DNA of 43,396 nucleotides from Candidatus Kapaibacterium sp. (GTDB lineage: Bacteria > Bacteroidota > Ignavibacteria > Kapaibacteriales > WFXC01). Every line of letters begins with the position of its first letter. Position 1 is the first letter of the stretch. The stretch lies in the NCBI GenBank assembly GCA_015490805.1, contig WFXC01000047.1, forward strand, positions 1-43,396. The letters run 5' to 3'. Positions 1,364 through 17,922 of this stretch are shown here, piece by piece. The notes under the pieces are model-generated. The model did no database searches and was not told the origin of the DNA. It saw nothing but the letters and a program-made list of their open reading frames with translations. The position numbers and the translations under genes were made by a program.

Positions 1364-1676
1364 CTGGGAGCGCCAGCTTGCGCCGGCAAAATATGAACGC
1401 TGAAGCGTGTGCACTCCAGTCGCAACCCACTGGGAGCGCCGACTTCAGTCGGCAAAGGATACACACTAAAGTGTGCGCTCCCAGTACCCCCCTGGGAGCG
1501 CCGGCTTTAGCCGGCAAAAATGCACCCTAAAGGGTGCGTTCCCGGTGAATGCACGCTGAAGCGTGTGCTCCCAGTAGATGCACGCTGAAGTGAGCGCTCC
1601 CAGCACAGGGAACGCCACACTTGGGAGCGCCGACTTTCGCCGGCACGAACTGGGAGCACCGACTTGAGTTGGTAAA
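1364..1676. repeat. Cluster 1 of covarying palindromic repeats (REPIN-like), about 10 units
   Basis: About ten units of 24-27 bases are packed between two convergent genes. P-type units read CTGGGAGCGCC, then an arm, a short core, the complementary arm, and AAA (1364-1390, 1430-1456, 1492-1518, 1621-1646, 1650-1676). Q-type units lie inverted (1395-1419, 1461-1484, 1521-1545, 1550-1574, 1579-1603) and end in GCTCCCAG. The arms covary: CCGGC/GCCGG and CCGAC/GTCGG in P; CACGCT/AGCGTG, CACACT/AGTGTG and CACCCT/AGGGTG in Q. A P unit followed by an inverted Q unit can also pair through the CTGGGAGCGC and GCGCTCCCAG flanks, giving a larger two-hairpin structure. Reading frames across this region are low-complexity repeat translations, not genes. 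Confidence 0.85.
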
Positions 1677-6045: not shown

Positions 6046-6460
6046 TTGGGAGCGCACGCTTCAGCGTGCAGTTTCCGGCTAAAGCCGAGGCCCCCGGTAG
6101 GGCATTTCCCGTGAGCTGGGAGCACACACTTCAGTGTGCATTTTCTTATTCTTGCGCTCTCGGTAGGACAGCGAGAGTCCATACTTTTGTGCGCAAGTCT
6201 CCCTTATCCTAACCCTCTCCCACAGGGAGAAGGAGATTTCTTTGCCGACTAAAGTCGGCGCTCCCAGTTGTGCCGGTGAAGTCGCGCCTCCAGTTCGCTG
6301 GGGGCGCACACTTTAGTGTGCATTTTCTTATTCTTTGCCGACTGAAGTCGGCGCTCCCGGTAAGACATTTCCTGTGCTGGGAGCGCGCGCTTCAGTGTGC
6401 AATCTCCCTTCACTCTCTCCAGAGAGAGGAAATTCCTTTGCCGAAGGACATCGGCCTTCC
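6046..6460. repeat. Cluster 2 of covarying palindromic repeats, opposite composite orientation to cluster 1
   Basis: This is the same family as at 1364-1676, seen from the other strand: Q-type units are now forward and P-type inverted. Forward Q units are near 6046-6070, 6116-6143, 6298-6326 and 6377-6403, with arms CACGCT/AGCGTG, CACACT/AGTGTG and GCGCTT/AGTGTG. Inverted P units are near 6072-6097, 6241-6267, 6270-6293, 6334-6360 and, degenerate, 6437-6460; they include the perfect stems GCCGACTAAAGTCGGC and GCCGACTGAAGTCGGC. The cluster sits upstream of nadE and downstream of trxB, both transcribed leftward. It also hosts a different, purine/pyrimidine-type repeat at 6201-6235. Confidence 0.83.
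6201..6235. repeat. CCCTAACCCTCTCCC-type imperfect palindrome
   Basis: The segment reads CCCTTATCCTAACCCTCTCC, then CACAGGGAGAAGGAG. CTCTCCC and GGGAGAA can form a short stem. It resembles the common bacterial intergenic repeat of the form CCCTAACCCTCTCCC...GGGAGAGGG. A shorter related stretch, CTCTCTCCAGAGAGAGG, lies at 6412-6428 in the same repeat-rich gap. It is separate from the GGGAGCGC family but co-located with it. No function is assigned. Confidence 0.5.
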
Positions 6461-6494
6461 GATGGGTATGGAGCTCTTCTATCCGTAAGGCACA

Positions 6495-6516
6495 GGGGCG
6501 ACGCAGGCGTCGCCCC
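6495..6516. terminator. GC-rich 10-bp hairpin just past trxB
   Basis: GGGGCGACGC and GCGTCGCCCC form a perfect stem with a two-base centre (in practice a 9-bp stem and 4-base loop), 11 bases past the trxB stop in the direction of transcription. No T run follows on the trxB strand, so it is not a canonical intrinsic terminator. It could be a transcript-stabilising hairpin, or another dispersed palindromic repeat of the GGGGCGACGC type. Strand is left open because the structure is symmetric. Confidence 0.45.
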
Positions 6517-6527
6517 TACCCGTAGAG

Positions 6528-17093: not shown

Positions 17094-17455
17094 TGCTGCG
17101 CTCCGTCGTTGCCCCATTGCCGGATCTTGCTGGAGATGCTACATCACCCGATACCACGTTGCCCTCACACGCACGCTTTATCGGAAACGAAGGACTCTAC
17201 AGCAGATTGATTCCCTGCTGTGGACAGTGTCCAGATGGCACAATTGCTCTGGTAGTCCGCTCTGGTGGATAGTTGGATGCGAATTTACTCAACTGGATCG
17301 GGAGATTACTGTCGGATATGCTGTGTTTGCTCTCTTGCTGAGAAAGCAGAGATACAGTTGGAGTGGGGAGTACCGTTTGTGGTATGGAAAAGGATGCATT
17401 CCTGGTGTTATCGGAAAAGGATAAGGAAGTTGCATCCGGTGACCGGGCGTGGCTT

Positions 17456-17745
17456 CCCGGAGGTGCCGGTTTTCGCTGGCAAAAGATGCACGCCTGAGGG
17501 CATACGTTCCCAGTAAATCCAACAGGGAGCACCGACTTTAGTCGGCATGAGATGTACCCTAAAGGGAGCGCTTCCAGTAGATGCACGCCTAAGAGCATGC
17601 GTTTTCAGCAAACTGGGAGCGCTCCACTGGGAGCGCCGGCTTTCGCCGGCAAGAAGAATGCAGAGAGCAAGCCTCCAGATTGATTCTGGACCACTCAGGG
17701 GTTTGTCCTGCCGGCGGCAGAGCATACTGAAGAGTGTGCTCCCGG
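17456..17745. repeat. Cluster 3 of covarying palindromic repeats, more degenerate
   Basis: This is the same family and orientation as cluster 1: P-type forward, Q-type inverted. P units lie near 17456-17484, 17523-17550 (perfect CCGAC/GTCGG) and 17627-17653 (perfect CCGGC/GCCGG). Q units lie near 17487-17513, 17553-17577, 17582-17608 and 17720-17745, and a lone flank at 17613-17625. Several stems are imperfect, so the copies look older. The cluster lies between the divergent HEAT and barrel genes and fills much of the 829-base gap 17094-17922. The remaining parts of the gap (17094-17455 and 17746-17922) show no gene or motif I can support. Confidence 0.78.
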
Positions 17746-17922
17746 TAGTCGGATGTTGCAATGTGCACTCACAACGAGTGGAGCGTAAAGGCGCGGATGA
17801 CTTGTTCCACGCTCGCACTATAGAATCCGCTTTGCGGCAGGAGGAAGTTGCCGCAATACTGCACGAAAAAAAGCGTTTGCTCGTATCGCGGCAATTGGTT
17901 GAGCAAGGATGCTGATCGGGCA

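Follow-up and report, generated by a model that had tools for sequence, protein, structure and literature searches.

A family of short palindromic repeats, present in hundreds of copies in three members of the Candidatus Kapaibacterium lineage, is organized as head-to-head pairs of two distinct hairpin units, which we term P and Q. The most probable reading, to which we assign roughly three chances in four, is that these constitute a new GGAG-headed REP family, arranged as REPINs or BIMEs and spread by a RAYT that is now lost, unassembled or acting in trans. The stretch of DNA analysed here (the window; 43,396 nucleotides) is contig 47 of a 2.67 Mb genome in 48 contigs that is 97% complete (G000), and it was compared with two genus-mates (G001 and G002; Candidatus Kapaibacterium sp., JALWUI and JALWJX), all three genomes being nearly complete drafts. 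Unit anatomy was derived from stretches totaling 825 kb, or 31% of the G000 genome, and doublets of the second species were counted in a 379-kb sample of G002. Genome-wide copies were sought with the pattern CTGGGAGCGCNNNCTTNNGNNNGC, allowing up to 2 mismatches and using the reversed pattern as a control, and gene positions for unit context were predicted by a simple codon-usage method.

In the window the units form three clusters, at 1364-1673, 6046-6460 and 17454-17750 (Table 1), in agreement with the first-pass annotation of this DNA, which had noted about ten palindromes in the first and more in two others. The first comprises ten palindromic units with CTGGGAGCGC as their constant part and a centre resembling CTTYAG, and the arm variants named earlier are all present, including the G-T wobble CCGAC/GTTGG. 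The window drew no matches to Rfam RNA families at the gathering score. A CRISPR interpretation was set aside because the units are inverted pairs and not spaced direct repeats.

Table 1. P and Q units of the window and RAYT genes discussed in the text
Location	Strand	Feature	Remarks
1364..1418	P +; Q -	Head-to-head doublet, P facing decayed Q	P 1364-1387; Q about 1395-1418
1430..1484	P +; Q -	Head-to-head P>/<Q doublet	P 1430-1453; Q 1461-1484; CTGGGAGC at one end, GCTCCCAG at the other; clover fold
1492..1545	P +; Q -	Head-to-head P>/<Q doublet	P 1492-1515; Q 1522-1545; fold z -3.31
1551..1603	-	Two tandem Q units	1551-1574, 1580-1603; 29-bp period with Q of doublet 1492..1545
1621..1673	+	Two tandem P units	1621-1644, 1650-1673; second with G-T wobble arm
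6046..6095	Q +; P -	Q facing decayed P	Q 6046-6069; P about 6074-6095
6116..6267	Q +; P -	Q and P, other repeat DNA between	Q 6116-6139; P 6244-6267
6298..6360	Q +; P -	Head-to-head Q>/<P doublet, longer spacer	Q 6298-6321; P 6337-6360; z -3.94
6377..6400	+	Q unit	
17454..17577	P +; doublet +, -	Start of cluster 3: decayed P, then P>/<Q doublet	P 17454-17485; doublet 17523-17546 (+), 17554-17577 (-)
17627..17650	+	P unit	
17722..17745	-	Decayed Q unit	
L317:1108-1746; L316:1072-1908; L329:1339-2010; L336:1366-2010; L344		RAYT-like HUH genes in or beside type I restriction operons	
L228:162-1042; L225:1326-2197; L239; L246		RAYT genes of other bacteria flanked by GGAG-headed hairpins	Stems quite different, e.g. 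TGGGAGCGCCAGACATRGTCTGGCG

In each unit a short CYGGGAGC head precedes a hairpin of 7 bp whose loop is TY; in 201 units found without using the bases that precede GGGAGC, these bases were CT in 121 and CC in 40. The 825-kb sample contained 231 units, against 9 for the reversed pattern, and they divide almost evenly into 115 P and 113 Q, with 3 being unclear. The earlier proposal that P and Q face each other was fully confirmed, with head-to-head pairs no more than 30 bp apart joining a P to a Q in 63/63 genuine cases of the G000 sample, mostly at a spacing of 6-9 bp, and in 31/31 close pairs of the G002 sample. Two apparent Q-Q pairs in the former arose from a single palindrome scored on each strand. 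Neighbouring units on the same strand belong to one class (P-P or Q-Q) in 41 of 44 instances, and in 40 of 43 clusters all P units lie on one strand and all Q units on the other. Given this strand coherence and the uniform P-Q composition of the head-to-head pairs, every cluster amounts to an array built from a directional P-Q module, and such arrays reach 10 units. The doublet at 1430..1484 folds as a clover in which the two outer flanks are paired (-15.5 kcal/mol, z -5.07), and two decayed doublets fold weakly. The P hairpin is followed by an A tract and not by a T tract, and the Q hairpin by ATTTT.

Two other repeats were noted in the same neighbourhoods. Palindromes of a GTAG-tagged, double-foot type (GTAGGGGCGA..TCGCCCCTAC; 6494-6521 in the window) are embedded in most P/Q clusters, with 22 of the 28 in the sample lying within 300 bp of a cluster, a zone that makes up 4.3% of the area. 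A third repeat, CCCTCACCCTAACCCTCTCCC..GGGAGAGGG (6201-6236 and 6405-6432 in the window), also occurs inside the clusters, and 14 of 21 copies lie within 300 bp of one.

The arms of the hairpins vary in a coordinated manner. Over the 7-bp stem of 129 distinct units, 89.5% of cells are paired, versus 73.2% upon shuffling (0/500) and 19-39% with slid partners, and the covariation score is 0.423 versus 0.154, though these counts do not represent independent events because the copies are related. The difference between P and Q accounts for most of the two-sided arm change. Within the classes, the pair next to the CTTYAG core is matched in 89/95 P units (73.6 when shuffled, 0/5000) and 74/93 Q units (44.0 when shuffled, 0/5000), and at the two outer variable pairs covariation is weak or absent. 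The compensatory change reported earlier is hence borne out for the stem overall, but within a class it is strong only beside the core. G-T pairs occur in the stems, and arm types seen on the same frame outside the genus (AGA/TCT, GGA/TCC and CAG/CTG) add independent support for covariation. Selection for the hairpin, as originally suggested, is a reasonable reading, limited by the shared ancestry of the copies. Random arm mismatches lacking compensation, which the first-pass annotation had named as evidence against its reading, did not occur, and neither did its other adverse outcome, namely copies restricted to the window with no pairing preference.

The search of the whole genome and of relatives, which that annotation had proposed as a check, recovered the units at 569 places in G000 (275+294), as against 0 for the reversed pattern, and at 507 (G001) and 321 places in the two genus-mates. 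Outside the genus, no units above background were detected in 58 genomes from other families of the order, where matches were merely scattered, or in 295 other genomes of the phylum, none of which had more than 3 matches. The exact P core is also found in Verrucomicrobia, Calditrichaeota, Armatimonadota, Thiohalocapsa and unclassified bacteria, reaching at most about 60 copies by a looser pattern and lying near the control count in some of them.

Almost all units (221/224) are situated outside predicted genes, with convergent gaps being enriched for them (16/37 vs 39/225, p 3.7e-5) and divergent gaps depleted. Their number at a given site differs between species (10 vs 2 in one comparison): at the site of the first window cluster there are 9 units in G000, about 14 in G001 and 2 in G002, and at C14:39330-39534 seven units directly follow a stop codon in G000 at a site where G002 has none. 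Of 14 anchored G000 clusters, 10 have recognizable units in G002 and the rest lack units or retain decayed remains, a shared fraction that is an overestimate because the G002 contigs were partly chosen for carrying units. An initial impression that all sites are common to the species (13/13) was discarded on similar grounds, the loci having been chosen for carrying units, and sites picked from G000 were empty in its mates. The aligned interspecies sites contained neither an exact empty site showing a clean edge of insertion nor clean target duplications, and exact insertion borders are unreadable because the flanks diverge. One segment of about 2 kb in G001 (L251:2902-4938) that is absent from the genome of the window seems to carry two genes, one of them DNA methyltransferase-like.

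We searched the three Kapaibacterium genomes for a transposase with several profiles. The Pfam Y1_Tnp model gave 0 matches in G000, G001 and G002. The RAYT model NF047646 identified two RAYT-like genes in G000 (C44 and C38; scores of 56.2 and 45.4 bits, where the cut-off is 80) and two in G002 (C109 and C23), with no RAYT-like match in G001, and the view that there is no Y1 enzyme at all was therefore rejected, Y1_Tnp alone having missed these genes. All of them sit in type I restriction loci and display HUH and tyrosine motifs (NHIH, WQRNY and YI(V/L)ENP), between which lies an in-frame palindrome of the GTAGGGGCG type in intact or decayed form. The subclass 2.4 of TnpAREP is defined by NH[IFV]H, WQ, YIxNNP and an in-frame double-foot REP between the HUH and Y motifs (PMC6006769), and the restriction-locus genes fit this subclass, with ENP in place of NNP as a small departure, an assignment made from the motifs and the internal repeat. 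The same in-frame palindrome (GTAGGGGCG..CGCCCCTAC) between HUH and tyrosine was noted in the restriction-operon loci of Table 1, where it reads VGATGRSPLQ, GGATHASPLR or VGATRRVAPT, in agreement with subclass 2.4; the repeat itself is not new, having already been described for that subclass (PMC6006769). No P/Q units occur on either side within 1.5 kb of the four Kapaibacterium genes, and ownership of the units by these genes was dismissed as unproven, as they carry internal GTAG double-foot repeats and no P/Q flanks. A profile built from five RAYTs, including those of L357 and L374 described below, scored 3.5e-101 and 2.7e-100 in the verrucomicrobial genomes used to build it and matched only the restriction-locus genes in Kapaibacterium. 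A cognate RAYT flanked by P/Q units was not found in G000, G001 or G002 using Y1_Tnp, NF047646 or the RAYT profile, and it should be noted that these are draft genomes and that RAYT genes lying between repeats tend toward contig ends or outside bins.

A different picture is seen in two Verrucomicrobia, a Verrucomicrobiaceae MAG (L357) and Verrucomicrobiia Tous-C4TDCM (L374), where doublets of the P core lie on both sides of RAYT genes coding for proteins of 211 and 204 aa, which score 85.0 and 84.5 bits with NF047646 (cut-off 80). Since genuine RAYT genes are bordered by this P core in both, the suggestion that the doublets are moved by a RAYT is supported for the family, but in the three Kapaibacterium genomes no cognate enzyme was found. 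The doublets in L357 and L374 are P-like on both sides, with no Q class seen. A P-core copy in Thiohalocapsa, about 0.8 kb from a RAYT gene and on one side only, was not counted as a REPtron. In many genomes of other phyla RAYT loci have GGAG hairpins of different sequence, or none, and the loci of this kind in Table 1 suggest that GGAG may be a regular alternative REP head.

As short, high-copy palindromes located mostly outside genes, the units conform to the general definition of REPs, and as two inverted REPs at a short fixed distance, pairable and in tandem clusters, the doublets conform to that of REPINs or BIMEs, so that the original diagnosis of REP/REPIN-like doublets is strongly supported by their copy number, extragenic position, strictly heterotypic head-to-head pairing and clover fold. 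What they lack is a GTAG or GT[AG]G head by the stem, which is GGGAGC instead. Degenerate heads are on record for some REP families, GGAG not being among those given (PMC3733652), and because of this head we do not file the family in the GTAG super-family; the wider definition of REPs does not need a GTAG head. A RAYT flanked by its REP in the same genome, the hallmark of a REPtron, was not encountered in the three drafts, and it is the same core in L357 and L374 that flanks RAYT genes. These verrucomicrobial REPtrons share with Kapaibacterium an identical P core, GGGAGCGCCGRCTTYAGYCGGC, or one-base variants of it, and head-to-head doublets, but differ in their P-like composition and in flanking a RAYT gene. 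The REP families of Pseudomonas and Xanthomonas RAYTs (GTAG-1 type; TGTGGGAGCGGGC..GCCCGCGAA in P. putida and GTAGGAGCGCGC.. in X. campestris) are alike in having GGAGCG by the stem, a short hairpin, hundreds of extragenic copies, inverted doublets and tandem BIME-like clusters (PMC2817692, PMC3116915), and unlike in their GT[AG]G head, as opposed to the CYGGGAGC head, strictly heterotypic doublets and missing cognate RAYT observed here. Two different facing hairpins and mosaic clusters are also known from E. coli BIMEs, with their Y and Z REPs, and from other heterodimer REPs (PMC3733652), although in E. coli the units are long with bulges, carry a GTAG head and usually have a resident RAYT. 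CGTC-tagged REPs resemble the family as palindromic repeats lacking a dedicated host transposase (PMC3733652), but have another tag and stem, and the P/Q core has a RAYT in another phylum. The CTTYAG centre and TY loop recur in the Thioalkalivibrio GTAGGTCGGCCTTCAGGCCGAC and H. influenzae GTAGGGTGGGCTTYAGCCCACC REPs (PMC2817692), which, unlike the P/Q units, have the GTAG head directly at the stem foot.

The placement of the units could also be explained if they were kept as RNA hairpins at gene ends, serving as bidirectional terminators or as 3'-end stabilizers of mRNA, with copying being secondary. Their abundance between convergent genes and scarcity between divergent ones, the ATTTT after Q hairpins, the G-T pairs in the stems and the terminator-like calls at 1537-1522, 6122-6139 and 6304-6321 (27 in total in 18.5 kb, vs 18.7 expected) are in keeping with this. 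However, placement after genes is a general REP pattern (PMC3733652), the P hairpin lacks a T tract, and a terminator role leaves unexplained the strict P-Q pairing, the long arrays, the conserved 5' head and the presence of the same core beside RAYT genes in another phylum, which makes this explanation quite unlikely. Non-autonomous MITEs of an ordinary (DDE) insertion sequence would likewise appear as short inverted-repeat elements at high copy between genes, but no insertion sequence with matching terminal repeats was met, clean target duplications are missing from the aligned sites, and the unit structure, TY loop and head are REP-like, as is the association of the core with RAYT genes; such an origin is very improbable.

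A closer alternative is that the doublets are still being copied at present, in trans, either by a cognate RAYT missing from the assemblies or by the RAYT-like proteins of the restriction loci (TnpAREP subclass 2.4). The presence of RAYT-like HUH genes in G000 and G002, the GTAG double-foot repeats among the P/Q clusters and the rapid turnover between species all speak for it, but G001 has 507 units and no RAYT-like match, the four genes are devoid of P/Q flanks within 1.5 kb and their internal repeat has a GTAG head, and we regard it as rather unlikely. It is possible, if doubtful, that a REPIN population persists across the genus as strict GGAG-headed P-Q heterodimers that turn over with no resident cognate RAYT, through a benefit to the host or through an in-trans TnpAREP of another subclass.

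If, as we favor, the family consists of REPINs spread by a RAYT, the replicating entity would probably be the doublet of about 54 bp, in which a P hairpin faces a Q hairpin head to head and the two heads would pair with each other in single-stranded DNA. Judging by the homologous REPtrons of Verrucomicrobia, a RAYT, i.e. an HUH Y1 single-strand transposase, would have recognized the head and hairpin and inserted copies of the doublets into single-stranded DNA, for the most part at extragenic positions, where they may then have multiplied and decayed locally as tandem arrays. Points against this scenario are the GGAG rather than GT[AG]G head, the lack of a clean empty site and the Verrucomicrobia with no Q class seen. 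The Kapaibacterium family is probably a persisting population, in which past mobilization and loss of the RAYT would have been followed by change mainly through local duplication, deletion and recombination, the exception being that a RAYT missing from the assemblies, or active in trans, may still serve it. E. coli genomes lacking a RAYT keep REPINs, in smaller number (PMC8049555), and persistence without the enzyme is therefore known in principle.

We found no REP/REPIN family described for Kapaibacteria in the literature, and the earlier call for a proper description of this family from the FCB group is justified, although the kind of element itself is already known. With the P/Q units, Kapaibacteria gain a large family of REPs and REPINs whose head is unusual, and the REPs of this lineage are tied to RAYT genes in a distant phylum. 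The units provide a natural setting in which to ask for how long a REPIN population can outlast its transposase, and why facing units stay different.
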